DNA of 5,557 bases from Lachnoclostridium sp. UBA739 (lineage in GTDB: Bacteria; Bacillota_A; Clostridia; Lachnospirales; Lachnospiraceae), in assembly GCA_002297865.1 (NCBI GenBank), contig DBKX01000221.1, positions 8,002 to 13,558 of the forward strand, written 5' to 3'. Positions 1 through 5,557 of the stretch are shown here, one piece after another (positions within the stretch are counted from its first letter, which is position 1; the number at the start of each line of letters is the position of its first letter). The notes under the pieces are model-generated. The model was not told the DNA's origin. It saw only the letters and a program-made list of their open reading frames with translations, and made no database searches. A program made the translations under genes and the position numbers.

Positions 1-907
1 CTTCATCACCATGAATCCAGAATATTGGTTTCCCTTTCTTTACCGAATTAAGCGGGACCAGCTGACTAATCGGTTCCTTTGCGTCAAATGCACCTAGTAT
101 ATTTTTTAGTACAATTGGATTATTTGAAAGCGTTTTCTTCTGATTTTCCCACTCTTTCTCAACTACTTGATCTAATTTTTCTCTGATTTCTTGTGTCATA
201 TGTTCTTTTAGCAAAATCAAAGACTTAAGTGGAGCCTGTGCAATTTCGTCAGCGAGTGCCTTGGCTTCTGTTAACACCTCTTTTTTGGATACAATAGTCA
301 AGCTGACTCCTTTTTCAGCTAATTGAAATCCTTTATAAGTTTTTCCTGTGTAAAGGATTTCTTGTGCAACATTAATGTCCATCTTTTCTTTAAAAATAAA
401 GGTAGCTCCATCCCCTGGTGTAAAGCCATATCTCATATGATTGCATGTGTAACTGCATTCGCTGCCTAGAAGTACAAAATCACAAAACATTCCTAAACAC
501 CAGCCACCACCGATCGCATGACCATTCATTGCAGCAATCACAGGAACTCTGCATTTTAGCGGTAATTCGTATACTCCGAAGTCTGTCATCTTAGCTGTTC
601 CATTATAAAGTTCTAACAGACCTTCTTCATTACCTCCACATGCAAAATAGTTGCGGGACCCAGCCAGAATAACCACTTTACAAGAATCATTTTGATTTAT
701 TTCTTCAAATGTCCTGATTAAACCAGTTATCAGTTCTTTAGAGAACATATTCTTATTCTGTACATCTGCCATTTCTACTAAAACCACACCATTATTGTAT
801 TGTGTTGTTTTCACCACAGATTCCTTCATATCTTTTAGTAGTAAAACTGCCTCTTCCTGAGTGATTTTTCCTTCTTTTAACTGCTCTAAAACCTGCCTAA
901 CATTCAT
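1..907 (-). CDS. ECH2-like domain fused to an apparent thioesterase domain (partial, runs off left edge)
   Basis: The frame from ATG 907 stays open to the left edge: 302 residues, C-terminus missing. AGGGGG lies seven bases before the ATG. Residues 1-30 form a short amphipathic helical motif (LEQLKEGKITQEEAVLLLK), like those at subunit ends or linkers of megasynthases. Residues ~40-270 are a crotonase domain of ECH2 type: FSKEL (55-59), NYFACGGN (86-93), MNGHAIGGGWCLGMFCDF (127-144), MRYGFTPGDGAT (158-169). It aligns without gaps to the neighbouring PksI-like protein over 223 positions, 101 identical by my count. The C-terminal MHEITFHQP of that protein is replaced by NQKKTLSNNP, so both His are gone. 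From ~283, LVPLN..KKGKPIFWIHGDE matches the start of type I thioesterase domains (first strand and HG oxyanion turn). The Ser-Asp-His triad and any further domains lie outside. ECH assignment is firm; the thioesterase call rests on ~20 residues. It is the last visible gene of the operon. Confidence 0.85.
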   Translation of the reverse strand, partial: MNVRQVLEQLKEGKITQEEAVLLLKDMKESVVKTTQYNNGVVLVEMADVQNKNMFSKELITGLIRTFEEINQNDSCKVVILAGSRNYFACGGNEEGLLELYNGTAKMTDFGVYELPLKCRVPVIAAMNGHAIGGGWCLGMFCDFVLLGSECSYTCNHMRYGFTPGDGATFIFKEKMDINVAQEILYTGKTYKGFQLAEKGVSLTIVSKKEVLTEAKALADEIAQAPLKSLILLKEHMTQEIREKLDQVVEKEWENQKKTLSNNPIVLKNILGAFDAKEPISQLVPLNSVKKGKPIFWIHGDE

Positions 908-923
908 GCTTCTTCCCCCTAAA

Positions 924-1673
924 CTATCTACCAAATAACTGCTTTATTCTTTCTTCAACAATTGGCTGGTGAAAGGTAATTTCATGCATTTCTATTTCTT
1001 TTTCAATATACGCGGGTAATTCATTTCTTATATCTGAAACTAAATGCTTCTTTAACGTAATGAGGGACAGTCTAGGCTTTTCTGCCAATTGTTTTGCAAG
1101 TTCAATCGCATATCCTACAACTTCTGCCTTCGGTAACACAGGATATGGAACTCCTCGCTTCTCTAATTCAGGACCACGATACGTTCCCGCATTTAACAAC
1201 ATTTCTTCACCTAATGCAATCCCAAGTTTCTTAGGCACCACACAGGTTGCTCCCATACCAGGTGTAAATCCATATTTCATAAAATTGGTTGTATATACAC
1301 ATTCCTTACCGAGTACAACGAAATCAGCAAACAGCCCCATTACAAAGCCACCACCGATCCCATGACCTTGCATGGCAGAAATGACCGGTATATCACACTC
1401 TAGTGCTAGTGAATATATATTTTTATCTGTAAACTTTTCCTTACCCTGATTGATAGCTAACAGACTCTCCATCGTTCCGCCTGAACAAAAATAATTATCA
1501 TATCCGGTCATTATAACAACTTTATATACATCATCGTTCCTAATTCGCTCAAAACTCTCTTCTAGCTGCTCAATTAACTCTTTTGAAAAGGTATTTTTAC
1601 TCACTCGGTCTTCCATCCGAAGCATTAAAATTTCAGATGTAATTTTCTCCTCAAATACTACTTTCCTATCCAT
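924..1673 (-). CDS. pksI: PksI-type ECH2, decarboxylase of the beta-branching cassette
   Basis: This crotonase-fold protein has 249 residues, the usual size for stand-alone ECH2. Motifs in order are FSKEL (29-33), the oxyanion loop YFCSGGT (61-67), KFTDKNIYSLAL (80-91), MQGHGIGGGFVMGLFADF (101-118, second oxyanion loop), MKYGFTPGMGAT (132-143) and a C-terminal MHEITFHQP (229-237) with His230 and His235. These are the conserved blocks of the PksI/CurF-ECH2 group, which decarboxylates the 3-methylglutaconyl-type ACP thioester; in CurF a Lys, a Tyr and a C-terminal His are reported as active-site residues. It acts after ECH1 and fixes the double-bond position of the beta-branch. The ATG start has GAGGGTG seven bases upstream; the gap is 17 bases to ECH1 and 16 bases to the next gene. 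A second, fused ECH2-like domain follows immediately downstream (about 45% identity by hand count). Confidence 0.92.
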   Translation of the reverse strand: MDRKVVFEEKITSEILMLRMEDRVSKNTFSKELIEQLEESFERIRNDDVYKVVIMTGYDNYFCSGGTMESLLAINQGKEKFTDKNIYSLALECDIPVISAMQGHGIGGGFVMGLFADFVVLGKECVYTTNFMKYGFTPGMGATCVVPKKLGIALGEEMLLNAGTYRGPELEKRGVPYPVLPKAEVVGYAIELAKQLAEKPRLSLITLKKHLVSDIRNELPAYIEKEIEMHEITFHQPIVEERIKQLFGR

Positions 1674-1690
1674 TTATGCGCACCCTCACC

Positions 1691-2461
1691 CTACTCCCAG
1701 GGATATTTACCTTTCTCAACAAAATTGAATATATCAGACAAATTTTCAGGATTGGAAAACATCTCCTTATTTGCTTCAATCGCTCCCGCTTTATGATAAA
1801 ATATCCCCTCTGTGTATTGATTACGATACTTCTTATAATTTTCAATTCCTCGCTTGGATAAAACCTTTAAGCGTAATAAATTTCTTCGAAGAAGTGATGT
1901 TGTATCTTTTGCATATGCATTAACCAAACCATATTCATATGCTTTTTCTACATTAAGTGGCTGTGTCATCATGGTAAAGTAATTGGCTTTGTTCAAGCCG
2001 ATTTTATTTACAAGAAAAGGGAATACAATTGCAGGATAAATTCCAAACAATAATTCTGATAAACTAAAAACTGCAGTTTCGTCAGCGATTACAATATCAC
2101 ACGCCGAAACAAATCCCATTCCTCCAGCATTCACTTTACCTTTTACATTTGCAATTGATACAAACGGTCCTGTGTATAATCTTTGCCATAATTCATACAT
2201 ATCTTCAGGATGTGGTTGATTTTCAGAAGCTTCTTGATTCTTTTGATAGAGTTCTTTAAAATCAGCTCCAAAACAAAATGTTTCTGGCAACCCTTCTAAT
2301 ACAACAATTGTAATCTCATTGGACATGGAATCTAATACATGATGACAGTCTTTTATAAGTTGGTCATTAATTGTATTATTATTTTCAGGACGATAAATCT
2401 GAAGATAACATATCTTTCCTTCTTCTCGTACTCTTATCGTTTCATAATTCACTACAGCCAC
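1691..2461 (-). CDS. pksH: PksH-type ECH1, HMG-ACP dehydratase of the beta-branching cassette
   Basis: This crotonase-fold protein has 256 residues in its longest form. Visible motifs are RPENNNTIND near residue 24, the first oxyanion loop CFGADF (63-68), the second oxyanion loop GKVNAGGMGFVSACD (108-122) and SLSELLFGIYPA (133-144), where Glu136 occupies the place of a crotonase catalytic Glu. The VNAGG and SELLFG(I/L)YPA motifs and the PWE ending resemble PksH. In the pathway it removes water from the HMG-type adduct to give a methylglutaconyl-type thioester, the substrate of ECH2. The start is uncertain: GTG 2461 gives the family-like N-terminus, whereas GTG 2452, overlapping the HMGS TAG stop as TAGTG, has the better ribosome site (AGGTG) and would give 253 residues. 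Either way translation is coupled to the HMGS. The next gene follows after 17 bases. Confidence 0.92.
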   Translation of the reverse strand: MAVVNYETIRVREEGKICYLQIYRPENNNTINDQLIKDCHHVLDSMSNEITIVVLEGLPETFCFGADFKELYQKNQEASENQPHPEDMYELWQRLYTGPFVSIANVKGKVNAGGMGFVSACDIVIADETAVFSLSELLFGIYPAIVFPFLVNKIGLNKANYFTMMTQPLNVEKAYEYGLVNAYAKDTTSLLRRNLLRLKVLSKRGIENYKKYRNQYTEGIFYHKAGAIEANKEMFSNPENLSDIFNFVEKGKYPWE

Positions 2462-3711
2462 CTGTACTCTCTGTGGAATTCATTGATACTGTCTAAAACA
2501 AGTCTCTGCTTTCCAACACTTGCCTTATATGCACCAGGTATCATTTCAACATCTAATTTTGCATTTCTAGTTCCGAATTTTACAATGGAACTTTCTCTTA
2601 ATAGCTGTTCATATTCATCCATTGTTAAGCGGTAACGGTTGTCAAGCTGTTCTGATATTTTTAACTGACGAATTCTTTCCTGACCTTCTTTGGTTACAAC
2701 ACCACTATAAAATTCTGAACAGCATCCTGAACCATAAGAGAAGCATCCTAATCTCTTTGTTGTATCAAATTCACCATTATCAATTGTACTTGCAATTGAC
2801 ATTAGCACTGTTGCCCCCATGATATTTCCTACACGTGCACAATAGGTAATTCCAGGTTTAACTCTTTTTTCGAAATCTTCTTCAATCAGATCTGCCTTAC
2901 GAACTTTTTCAACCTTTCTCATCATAGTACGATGAGCTCCTTTTACCATTCCACCAAATGGTGTATGGAAACATAAGTACTGGAACGTATTCTGATAACT
3001 TACATTGGCAACTCTCTTTGTATATTCTTTGTATGCTTGTTCACAACAGTCTAAATAAGAAAGCAGTGAAAGATCTGCATTTCCTGATTCACTGTCTGGT
3101 ACAGGTCTGCAAGTATCCATAACTTCATATCCAAAGTAACCATTTGCACCAACATCTACTTGATAAATATATGGACGATTACTTACAAGAACAGCAACTG
3201 CTCCCGCTCCTCCACTTGGCTCTGCGTATGACCAGTCTTCTGTTAAAGCTGAACCACCTTCTGTAATTAAAAACCTAGAGATGTCGGTAGCAATAACTAA
3301 TGCTTTTGCGCCTTTTGACGTATTGGACAAAATGAAGTTAACTGCCATCTGAAAACCTGCTGTTCCAGAATAACATGCTTGTTTTAATTCAAACATTCTG
3401 ACATTCGTATTAAGTCCTAAGTATTTATGTATATATGTACTCATAGATTTACCAAAATCGATTCCTGACTCTGAACAGGTAATTACAAGTTCGATTTTAT
3501 TTTTTTCTTCTTCTGTAAGAGCATCAATAATAGGTTTTGCTGCATTTACACCACAAGTAACTGGGTCTTCGTAAGGTAACGCTACTGCCTTTTCTTTCAT
3601 TAATAAATTATTAAATCTTGTCTCATTTAGCTGACGATAATCTGCTAATTCCTTTACATCTAGATACGCAGTTCCACCAAATACATTCATTGCTTCAATT
3701 CCTACTGCCAC
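2452..3711 (-). CDS. pksG: PksG-type HMG-CoA synthase homologue for beta-branching
   Basis: This 419-residue, full-length member of the HMG-CoA synthase family begins GIEAMNVFGGTAYLD. The three catalytic residues are present: Glu81 in TCSESGIDFGKS, Cys113 in ELKQACYSGTAG (the acetylated nucleophile) and His249 in CFHTPFGGMVKGAHR. By family knowledge, cassette HMGS enzymes take acetyl from the donor ACP and condense it with the beta-keto group of an ACP-bound polyketide. A mevalonate-pathway role is unlikely because the gene sits between pksF- and pksH-like genes and next to an AcpK. It starts at GTG with an AGGAGG site, after a 108-base gap holding a strong hairpin, which is the only place where expression could be set apart within the operon. 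Its 3' end overlaps the longest form of the ECH1 gene by 10 bases. Cys residues are frequent, including a CC pair in YGSGCCSEF. Confidence 0.94.
   Translation of the reverse strand: MAVGIEAMNVFGGTAYLDVKELADYRQLNETRFNNLLMKEKAVALPYEDPVTCGVNAAKPIIDALTEEEKNKIELVITCSESGIDFGKSMSTYIHKYLGLNTNVRMFELKQACYSGTAGFQMAVNFILSNTSKGAKALVIATDISRFLITEGGSALTEDWSYAEPSGGAGAVAVLVSNRPYIYQVDVGANGYFGYEVMDTCRPVPDSESGNADLSLLSYLDCCEQAYKEYTKRVANVSYQNTFQYLCFHTPFGGMVKGAHRTMMRKVEKVRKADLIEEDFEKRVKPGITYCARVGNIMGATVLMSIASTIDNGEFDTTKRLGCFSYGSGCCSEFYSGVVTKEGQERIRQLKISEQLDNRYRLTMDEYEQLLRESSIVKFGTRNAKLDVEMIPGAYKASVGKQRLVLDSINEFHREYRWL
2458..2463 (-). promoter_or_regulatory. Candidate ribosome binding site favouring the shorter ECH1 start
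   Basis: AGGTGG on the minus strand lies five bases upstream of GTG 2452 and overlaps the alternative start GTG 2461. Upstream of 2461 only a weak GAGAG is seen. If this site is used, ECH1 starts at 2452 with a one-base stop/start overlap with the HMGS gene. Confidence 0.45.
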
Positions 3712-3819: not shown

Positions 3820-5055
3820 TTATTTGCAAATTGCACTTAGGCAAACTGCTGTATTAATACCTCCAAAGCCTATGCTCATACTAATTGCATTCTGAATAGT
3901 ATAATCCAATGCACTCTCTTGAACCCAATGAAAAGAAGTGTCTATTGGATTCAAGAGATTTCTAGTCGGATGCAGTTTTCCTTCTTTCATCTGCAAAACA
4001 GTAGCAACTAATTCTACTGCACCTGCAGCACTTAATCCATGTCCTGTAATTGATTTTGTTGCATTGATATATGCATGATTTAAACCACAGGATTTTAACG
4101 CTTCCAATTCAATTTGGTCTCCTATCTTAGAACCTGAACCATGCGGATTGATATAATCAATCTGACTGGATTCTAATTCGGCATCTTCAAGTGCCTTTTG
4201 AATTGCTCGCATTTCACCTTCAAGTGATGGATTCGGATTGCGGTTCGCATCCATATGTATTCCAAATCCCTCTACGGTAGCATAAGCTTTCTTTCCTCTT
4301 CTTTTTGCAGATTCTTTGCTTTCTACAACAAGAACTGCACAATTCTCTCCATAGATAAATCCGTCTCGGTCATTATCAAATGGGCGACAAGCCTGATCAG
4401 GTGTCTGACTATACCTATCTGATCCCATTGCTCCGATTGAACGAAAAGCCTGACATTCTAAATAGGACAAATCCATTAGTGTACCAACTGCGATACAAAC
4501 GTCAACCATTCCTGACTCAACTGCCTGGACTGCTTGTAAAAAAGCTAGTTGACCACTTGCAGATGCTCCACCAACAGTGTACGCCAAACCATGTATTCCA
4601 AATTCTTCTGTACATAAACCACATATATCCGTGTCCATGTACGAGCAAGCATACGTTGCTGGTATGTAATAAGCATCATCCCTATATTTCTTAGAAATCT
4701 TTAATAGTTCACGCTGCTGTACATTTGAGCCTCCAATAATAAGACCAGTCGAATCTGGATTCACTCCTTGAAGTTCTGCATCTTCCCAAGCTTCTTTTAC
4801 TGTAGCTAGTGCTACTTGCTCAGTATAAGAACATTTTCTTAATACTCTTCTTGAAAAAGCATCCATTCCAGATAATTCTGGAATTTCTGCTCCTATAAAC
4901 TTCACATCTTCATAACACCTGTCTTCTCTTTTTAAAACAGCAAAGGAATGATTTCCATTCCATAGTGCATTTGAAAATGCTTCGACTCCTTGGCCGACTG
5001 CTGATGTTATCCCTAAGCCTGTAATAACCGACTTACTGTTTCTGCATCTCTTCAT
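3820..5055 (-). CDS. pksF: PksF-type decarboxylating ketosynthase homologue (Cys-to-Ser active site)
   Basis: This 411-residue protein has the thiolase fold of a FabF/KAS-II-like ketosynthase (N-terminal SVITGLGITSAVG; C-terminal SIGFGGINTAVCL). The nucleophile motif, normally T-V-D-T-A-C-S-S, reads TVGGASASG, so Ser165 replaces the catalytic Cys. The two His of the triad remain (His305 in NPHGSGS, His339 in KSITGHG), as does Lys334. Loss of the Cys with both His kept is the known signature of PksF-like enzymes, which decarboxylate malonyl-AcpK to acetyl-AcpK and do not condense. The soluble enzyme acts with the preceding ACP and the following HMGS. Start ATG 5055 has a near-perfect GAGGTGAT lying inside the acpK coding sequence, so the 23-base overlap should couple translation. 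The protein is Cys-rich (13 Cys counted). A condensing FabF is ruled out by the active site; gene identity is by motif and gene order. Confidence 0.93.
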   Translation of the reverse strand: MKRCRNSKSVITGLGITSAVGQGVEAFSNALWNGNHSFAVLKREDRCYEDVKFIGAEIPELSGMDAFSRRVLRKCSYTEQVALATVKEAWEDAELQGVNPDSTGLIIGGSNVQQRELLKISKKYRDDAYYIPATYACSYMDTDICGLCTEEFGIHGLAYTVGGASASGQLAFLQAVQAVESGMVDVCIAVGTLMDLSYLECQAFRSIGAMGSDRYSQTPDQACRPFDNDRDGFIYGENCAVLVVESKESAKRRGKKAYATVEGFGIHMDANRNPNPSLEGEMRAIQKALEDAELESSQIDYINPHGSGSKIGDQIELEALKSCGLNHAYINATKSITGHGLSAAGAVELVATVLQMKEGKLHPTRNLLNPIDTSFHWVQESALDYTIQNAISMSIGFGGINTAVCLSAICK

Positions 5056-5281
5056 AAATCACCTCAGCCAATTCTCCCATATTGTTTGCTTTTCCAAGCA
5101 CAACTCTAGGAATTCTTAAATCTAGTGATTCAAGTGTAAGACTAACAATATCAGCACGGTCGATAGAATTACATCCTAAATCGACCAATCTGTCTGTCAT
5201 CTTAAAGTCTGTTCCTTCTAACTCTGGAATAATTTCTACTGTACTTTCTGTAATTACTTTGAAAATTTCTTCTTTGCTCAT
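5033..5281 (-). CDS. acpK: AcpK-type stand-alone donor acyl carrier protein
   Basis: This is an 82-residue single-domain ACP. The phosphopantetheine site is in LGCNSIDRADI, with Ser39 as the attachment residue. The 'NS-(I/V)-DRA-(D/E)-I' form and the following 'ESLDLRIPRV' are hallmarks of AcpK, the donor carrier of HMG-CoA synthase cassettes, rather than of fatty-acid AcpP (which has DSLD). By family knowledge it carries malonate, which the neighbouring KS homologue decarboxylates to acetyl-AcpK, the donor for the HMGS. I chose the second Met (5281) over the upstream ATG at 5293: the 5293 codon directly abuts the AAGGA, while 5281 has GGTGA five bases upstream and gives the usual AcpK length. 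The 3' end overlaps the KS gene by 23 bases, implying translational coupling. It begins 15 bases after the megasynthase stop. Confidence 0.93.
   Translation of the reverse strand: MSKEEIFKVITESTVEIIPELEGTDFKMTDRLVDLGCNSIDRADIVSLTLESLDLRIPRVVLGKANNMGELAEVIYEEMQKQ
5058..5065 (-). promoter_or_regulatory. Strong ribosome binding site of the decarboxylase gene, inside acpK
   Basis: The minus strand carries GAGGTGAT, which matches eight consecutive bases of the Shine-Dalgarno consensus, just before the ATG at 5055. It lies in the last codons of acpK, which shows that the overlap of the two genes is real and the start well placed. Confidence 0.8.
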
Positions 5282-5286
5282 TTTTT

Positions 5287-5298
5287 TCACCATTCCTT
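5287..5298 (-). promoter_or_regulatory. Ribosome binding site deciding the acpK start
   Basis: The minus strand reads AAGGAATGGTGA. Both AAGGA and GGTGA are partial matches to the Shine-Dalgarno consensus. GGTGA sits five bases before the ATG at 5281, whereas the ATG at 5293 is fused to AAGGA with no usable spacing. The AAGGA overlaps the TAA stop of the upstream gene, so ribosomes ending there could re-initiate. Confidence 0.6.
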
Positions 5299-5557
5299 AT
5301 AATTTTTTATATCTTTGCTCTGCGTCATCTAAATTTATTTCCGCAGTTACAACCTGTTCTACTAATCTTTCCAGTTCTCTCTGAATATCCTTGGAAGATT
5401 CTGTTTCTTCTGTAGCCTCTGCTGTGGCTTCTTCTGTGGCTTTTGCACTTGGCTCTTCTGTTCTATCTTCTTGTACACCTTCGCCACTTATATCATAGAT
5501 ATATTGTGCCATTTCTTTTATAGTAGGATATTGATATATCTTATCTGCTGTAACAGT
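5297..5557 (-). CDS. C-terminal end of a carrier-protein megasynthase (probable PKS), partial
   Basis: Only the last 86 residues are in the window and the frame is open to the right edge, so the gene starts outside. The first ~20 visible residues (TVTADKIYQYPTIKEMAQYI) match the end of an acyl or peptidyl carrier domain, where an 'F/Y-YPTI-x-x-(L/M)A-x-(Y/I)' pattern marks the last helix. The phosphopantetheine Ser lies outside. Then comes a charged low-complexity linker rich in Glu, Ala and Thr (about residues 35-53), and a terminal helical segment (about 57-86) with the pattern V-E-Q-V-x4-I-N-x-D-D-A. A short tail after the last carrier domain usually serves docking to a partner subunit in modular synthases; that role is inferred. 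The stop is followed after 15 bases by the acpK-like gene, so the two are probably co-transcribed. Carrier type (PKS or NRPS) and module content cannot be seen; a PKS is favoured because of the beta-branching genes downstream. Confidence 0.8.
   Translation of the reverse strand, partial: TVTADKIYQYPTIKEMAQYIYDISGEGVQEDRTEEPSAKATEEATAEATEETESSKDIQRELERLVEQVVTAEINLDDAEQRYKKL
5408..5455 (-). repeat. Four imperfect 12-bp tandem units encoding an EATE-like linker
   Basis: Four 12-base units lie end to end, in phase with the codons of the megasynthase tail. On the minus strand they encode EPSA, KATE, EATA and EATE, followed directly by ETE. On the plus strand the units read ttctgtagcctc, tgctgtggcttc, ttctgtggcttt and the more diverged tgcacttggctc. 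The segment separates the carrier domain from the C-terminal helical motif and would form a flexible acidic linker. Tandem units of this kind can vary in number between strains by slippage; that is inference. Confidence 0.7.

Follow-up and report, generated by a model that had tools for sequence, protein, structure and literature searches.

The closest described system is the ECHQ-TE family, reported with 23 members, all of which have the glutamine (Gln) of the ECHQ domain and are encoded behind a beta-branching cassette (PMC11425284). Its member Art21 is reported to show no decarboxylation in vitro and to be required for incorporation of the succinyl unit in aurantinin, and deletion of its ECHQ domain in Bacillus subtilis fmb60 led from the aurantinins, which contain this unit, to auritriacids (PMC11425284). 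According to the same source, Art21 Q280N partially rescued aurantinin, and Q280H, Q280A, and Q280E gave no rescue; loss of the TE, or its S390A substitution, left far less aurantinin and no auritriacids (PMC11425284). Homologues were assayed in a strain that still had Art21's own TE: 10 of the 11 restored aurantinin, and the five closest to Art21 also halted the auritriacids (PMC11425284). Dar43, Bha12755, Lsp9, Cru19, and Apo127 brought aurantinin back while the auritriacids continued, and Mha282 lowered the auritriacids and gave no aurantinin (PMC11425284). The preliminary description of the DNA considered here had not recognized an ECH directly followed by a thioesterase (TE) as a known arrangement; this architecture was already in print as ECHQ-TE (PMC11425284). 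What we add is the S/Q/Q triad of the full-length protein of this locus (P0122), a repeated loss of the TE Ser or His within the family, and a candidate docking hairpin.

The window (i.e., the whole stretch of 5,557 nucleotides that was analyzed) is occupied by genes on the minus strand, in the order end of a larger protein, ACP, KS0, HMGS, ECH1, ECH2, and fusion gene. Judged by their sequences, these genes are an HMG-synthase (beta-branching) cassette closed by the fusion gene, which lies directly behind it, as in the ECHQ-TE family. The end of the upstream protein (5297..5557) had no Pfam or NCBIfam matches; by eye, it comprises the last part of an ACP and a tail, and its place, as in relatives, indicates that it is probably a PKS. 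It is followed by an acyl carrier protein (5033..5293; NF005502, 103 bits, cut-off 79), the putative donor ACP by place and family, and by a ketosynthase (KS0; 3820..5055; NF005490, 602 bits) whose motif GGASASG has Ser where active ketosynthases carry Cys. The HMG synthase (2452..3711; Pfam and NCBIfam) has Cys113 in ACYSG, which we take from the motif to be the nucleophile. Next are the PksH-like ECH1 (1691..2461; NF005498, 363 bits), presumably the dehydratase, and a canonical, PksI-like stand-alone ECH2 (924..1673; NF005496, 377 bits) in which the catalytic His and Lys are kept. With the listed starts, HMGS and ECH1 overlap by 10 bases (2452-2461) and ACP and KS0 by 23 bases (5033-5055), which suggests translational coupling. 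Some published ECHQ-TE clusters also contain a mutated DH and a succinyl-type AT (PMC11425284); the window stops short of such genes.

The fusion gene starts at ATG 907, behind a purine-rich stretch that by eye suits a ribosome-binding site, and its frame stays open to the left edge (2..907; 302 codons, 0 stops). It encodes the first 302 of 578 residues of an ECHQ-TE protein that continues past the edge as P0122 (578 aa; 3 member sequences, 8 contigs), with 100% identity across all 302 window residues. The domain order in P0122 is ECH_1 (residues 38-263; E 4.4e-46 in the window protein; 119..796) and then PF00975 Thioesterase (residues 294-396; 68.4 bits, cut-off 26.4). The thioesterase region begins within the window (residues 282-302; 2..64), and the Pfam match starts at residue 294. 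An ECH2-like domain in frame with a thioesterase fold had been proposed from the window, and P0122 bears this out: the Pfam family expected beyond the edge is present with the right fold, and the record contains neither a stop nor a frameshift just past the edge. The P0122 model had a mean pLDDT of 85.5, N-terminal hairpin included; its pTM of 0.56 makes the domain arrangement tentative.

The architecture recurs in other proteins. A first protein search, which admitted targets up to 1.75 times the query (~528 aa), gave 462 matches, of which the 120 listed had 222 to 277 aa. A search set to a longer query length returned 20 proteins, every one with ECH and PF00975; P0122 ranked first and was 36 to 62% identical to the 19 other fusions. 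A profile search added the ECH-TE proteins P0142 to P0147; another of its matches, P0148, was dropped (TE present, ECH domain absent). With at least 19 further fusions and P0142 to P0147, the fusion is no assembly accident. Because the profile search scored only 7,999 candidates, those with the most words in common, and overlooked five of the 20 proteins above, the family count is a lower bound. Of these 20, five were labeled with an organism: Marininema, Melghirimyces, Cellulosilyticum, Anaeromicropila, and Dictyobacter. A scan of genome contigs (query A1) yielded 11 loci, i.e., six with ECH-TE (L003 to L008), one with ECH and no TE (L009), and four weak ones (L010 to L013); the window's own contig was not among them. 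These loci add Thermoactinomyces and Gracilibacillus to the carriers.

Scans of related genomes, with at most three candidates scored per genome in the two G005 samples, recovered ECH-TE in 2 of 392 genomes from the order of G005 (G005 and G006; E 1e-40), 1 of 391 from its class (G005; E 1e-60), 2 of 42 from the order of G001 (G001 and G004; E 1e-90), and 1 of 47 from the order of G003 (G003; E 1e-90), none of them new. Matches in G153, G168, G588, and G746 and a second match in G006 were rejected, as they covered the ECH part of the query only; the G168 loci L016, L018, and L021 hold three ECH2-like matches within long open frames (1,333 aa and 8,253 aa). Plasmid records matching the window protein numbered 1,099, and the two looked at had no annotation.

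By sequence, the closest solved relatives of the ECH half were the ECH2 enzymes PksI and CurF (PksI 4q1g best), and the best fold match was PksI 4q1k (TMt 0.96, rmsd 1.1). An ungapped alignment with PksI placed Gln256 (codon 140..142) at the catalytic His230, so that the window protein lacks the His of canonical ECH2; Lys106 (codon 590..592) is kept at Lys80, and Gly92 and Gly134 correspond to Gly66 and Gly108. Gln occupied the His230 place in all 25 ECHQ-TEs compared, Lys106 was Lys in 23 of 25, and the oxyanion Gly92 was kept in 25 of 25. The best 120 of the 462 shorter matches had His in 117 cases and Gln in two (P0002 and P0080), one being too short to tell; the stand-alone ECH2 of the window also has His. 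Neither association is free of exceptions in these data: P0147 is an ECH-TE that keeps His, and P0002 has Gln and no TE.

This conservation bears on whether ECHQ is a real enzyme for another reaction (e.g., a hydratase or isomerase step that acts on the branched chain) in whose active site Gln256 sits. The invariant Gln256 and Gly92 and the nearly invariant Lys106 favor this reading, as does the importance of the Q280 amide in Art21, where only Q280N partly works (PMC11425284). However, no reaction has been found so far, and Gly134 is replaced by Ser in 6 of 25; we regard an enzymatic ECHQ as unlikely.

The 25 ECHQ-TEs, the window protein among them, formed one side of a tree branch with support of 100/99. 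The tree was built from aligned columns, with 15 of the 120 shorter matches, P0002, P0080, and five cassette ECH2s as stand-alone enzymes; L006 was not counted, being a 99% duplicate of P0143, and P0147, which retains His, was for that reason tallied separately. On the other side of the branch, P0147 paired with P0002 (96/87). The window protein grouped with those of Dictyobacter, Cellulosilyticum, Anaeromicropila, Marininema, Gracilibacillus, and Melghirimyces, which were matched to published labels by initials, Art21 itself not being in the tree. P0147 (1,151 aa) consists of an ACP of the beta-branching type (GLDSIIGVEW), an ECH2-like domain with His, a TE with S/D/H, and a lipase-like domain; it could represent an intermediate form, although the lipase-like part may be chimeric. 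In P0002 (Paenibacillus polymyxa, 277 aa), an ECH2-like protein lacking a TE, Gln likewise stands for His230, and the C-terminal end looks odd.

A profile built from the thioesterase regions of six fusions matched the GbnD6 TE (9f7b) and the oocydin branching TE (7r0x) across almost its full length, and the triad columns were read from the alignment with the GbnD6 TE, in whose solved structure (9f7b) they hold S, D, and H. In P0122 these columns hold Ser363, Gln390, and Gln551 (S/Q/Q), and the complete Ser/Asp/His of an active PF00975 thioesterase is thus absent. The expectation of GxSxG, Asp, and His in order therefore held for the first element (GYSIGG, with the surroundings GGYSIGG kept) and failed for the other two. 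The nearest relative, P0123, has Ser, Glu, and Arg. Across the 25 ECHQ-TEs, the triad was complete in 14, and three differed at Asp only (two Asn, one Glu). Ser or His was missing in eight (P0122, P0123, P0138, P0139, P0140, P0141, P0142, and P0144), with Ala for Ser in five other than P0122 and P0123. These eight fall in four places of the tree (P0122 and P0123; P0138, P0140, P0142, and P0144; P0139; P0141). Because each group has relatives that keep both residues, four losses would be the simplest reading, with the places of P0139 and P0141 unsure on account of long branches. The repeated loss (8/25) narrows the mechanism, in that ordinary hydrolysis is unlikely in those lineages.

Two hydrolytic readings have to be weighed against these residues. 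One, from the preliminary description, is that the protein may tie the final step of beta-branching to release of the chain by hydrolysis. ECH2 homology and a real TE fold are what such a coupling would need, but the catalytic His is replaced by Gln256, a canonical ECH2 adjoins at 924-1673, Art21 is reported to lack decarboxylase activity (PMC11425284), and the triad is broken. Because of Gln256 and the grouping with the Art21 family, the link is unsupported, and we judge it highly improbable; that the protein works in trans on an ACP, as also suggested there, is possible. Release or editing by the TE was the other part of that proposal, and two of the three triad residues are missing. In the second reading, the TE would still edit in the manner of type II thioesterases, with Ser363 working alongside residues other than Asp and His: Ser363 and its motif are kept, S/D/H is complete in 14 of 25, and S390A strongly cuts aurantinin in Art21 (PMC11425284). 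Against this, P0122 has Gln at both remaining places, P0123 has Glu and Arg, and Ala stands for Ser in five other members, so that an editing role appears quite improbable for P0122.

The published homologue tests bear on the same question. By initials, and by the label "Chloroflexi" for Dar43, the data suggest that Dar43, Cru19, and Apo127 are the Dictyobacter P0138, Cellulosilyticum P0139, and Anaeromicropila P0141, each of which has a broken TE triad. If these identities hold, the reported restoration of aurantinin (PMC11425284) is consistent with steering that does not require the TE, with the caveats that Art21's TE was still in the strain and that these three did not stop the auritriacids. 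Mha282 would, by initials, be the Marininema P0125, whose triad is intact and which nevertheless gave no aurantinin (PMC11425284); therefore, not every ECHQ-TE steers the aurantinin line. In its main text, PMC11425284 does not use the word "triad," and its examined passages containing "catalytic" are silent on the TEs of the homologues. P0122 might itself be one of the 23 published proteins.

In relatives, HMGS and ECH1 preceded the fusion in all six fetched clusters (L003 to L008), a KS0-like gene stood directly before HMGS in three (L004 to L006), and a canonical ECH2 lay between ECH1 and the fusion in four, being absent there in L007 and L008. The canonical ECH2 of Cellulosilyticum (L008) is located elsewhere in the genome. 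The genome of L007 (Anaeromicropila populeti), searched at E 1e-20, contained the fusion only; because neither the cassette nor the genome at this threshold has a canonical ECH2, the branch in L007 might keep its carboxyl group. The upstream PKS ended in tandem GxDSx5W ACPs in 6/6 relatives (two in five clusters, three in L008), a region that the window stops short of.

The N-terminus of the window protein (residues 1-28; 824..907) is a helix-turn-helix in the model, with helices at residues 3-11 and 17-27, and may be a docking domain. By eye, this pattern was present in 20 of 21 fusions and absent in P0139; a PF22746 SHOCT-like match was below the cut-off, and similar stretches occurred close to the beginning of further frames in PKS clusters (L016, L018, L023, and L024). 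Trans-AT docking domains are described as helix-turn-helix elements of ~25 residues at both termini of subunits (PMC9113145). A like motif was seen by eye at the PKS tail end in five of the six relatives (L003 to L007). The N-terminal profile, built without P0139 and with the P0134 row mis-cut, weakly found four PKS tails (L006, 0.025; L003, 0.094; L004, 0.17; L005, 1.2) and did not find those of L007 and the window. The window tail (5300..5374), which resembles the PKS tails of related clusters and is a candidate docking partner, scored 6.0 bits with a five-tail profile (reached by 1/1,000 shuffles; E 0.26 among 1,243 frames). The tail profile also matched frames in L016 (1.1e-5) and L023 (5.4e-4); the tail motif is therefore not special to ECHQ-TE clusters. 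L008 has neither the PKS tail motif nor the N-terminal motif, a single case that, at the level of sequence, would be expected of a matched docking pair. When an ECHQ-TE N-terminus and a PKS tail, one of each, were compared with PDB sequences, nothing relevant came up, and 2N5D was not matched. Docking of the hairpin to the PKS tail is plausible, if slightly less likely than not.

Domain order, Gln256, family grouping, cassette context, and a TE without Asp and His are the basis for the reading that we favor, i.e., that the gene product is probably an accessory protein of the ECHQ-TE type, akin to Art21, that serves a trans-AT PKS and has an assembly-line-steering role and a nonhydrolytic TE remnant. 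The helix-turn-helix at the N-terminus of P0122 would dock to the tail at the C-terminus of the upstream PKS; in relatives, this PKS terminates with beta-branching ACPs in tandem. An acyl chain on such an ACP would be held in the ECHQ pocket without being decarboxylated, and chain building would thereby be biased toward one course and away from the plain collinear one. In this reading, the TE half would no longer hydrolyze in the lineage of P0122 and would serve as a structural or acyl/ACP-binding part. Steering of product choice by the window protein is something that we infer from its likeness to Art21, and loss of TE function may not be neutral, as loss of the TE Ser in Art21 strongly cuts the titer (PMC11425284). 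More tentatively, the TE half of ECHQ-TEs may have repeatedly turned into a pseudothioesterase, a part that binds acyl groups or ACPs without hydrolysis and that, with the Gln-disabled ECH and the docking hairpin, makes a wholly noncatalytic steering subunit. The window protein, disabled in both halves, would then illustrate this best. A docking hairpin, if real, would show where the ECHQ-TE acts, and this point and the repeated loss of TE residues would both be useful for redirecting polyketide synthesis with ECHQ-TEs.

Compared with known systems, the ECH half shares its fold with PksI and CurF ECH2 (4q1g, 42 to 46% identity, and 2q2x, 39 to 40%; Foldseek), along with Lys80 and the oxyanion glycines, and unlike them the window protein has Gln for His230, a TE fusion, and an extra N-terminal helical hairpin. 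GbnD6 (9f7b) and the oocydin branching TE (7r0x) are the best solved matches to the TE by sequence and fold, whereas P0122 is 21 to 22% identical to them and lacks the triad Asp and His. The modeled N-terminus has the ~25-residue helix-turn-helix shape of the four-helix docking domains of VirA/VirFG (2N5D; PMC9113145), with no sequence match to 2N5D. The S/Q/Q of the P0122 TE differs from the situation in Art21, a protein not aligned here, where Ser390 matters for titer (PMC11425284). Art21 and P0122 are alike in having an N-terminal ECH2-like domain with Gln for His and a C-terminal TE, and in being encoded directly behind a cassette with a separate canonical ECH2 (PMC11425284).
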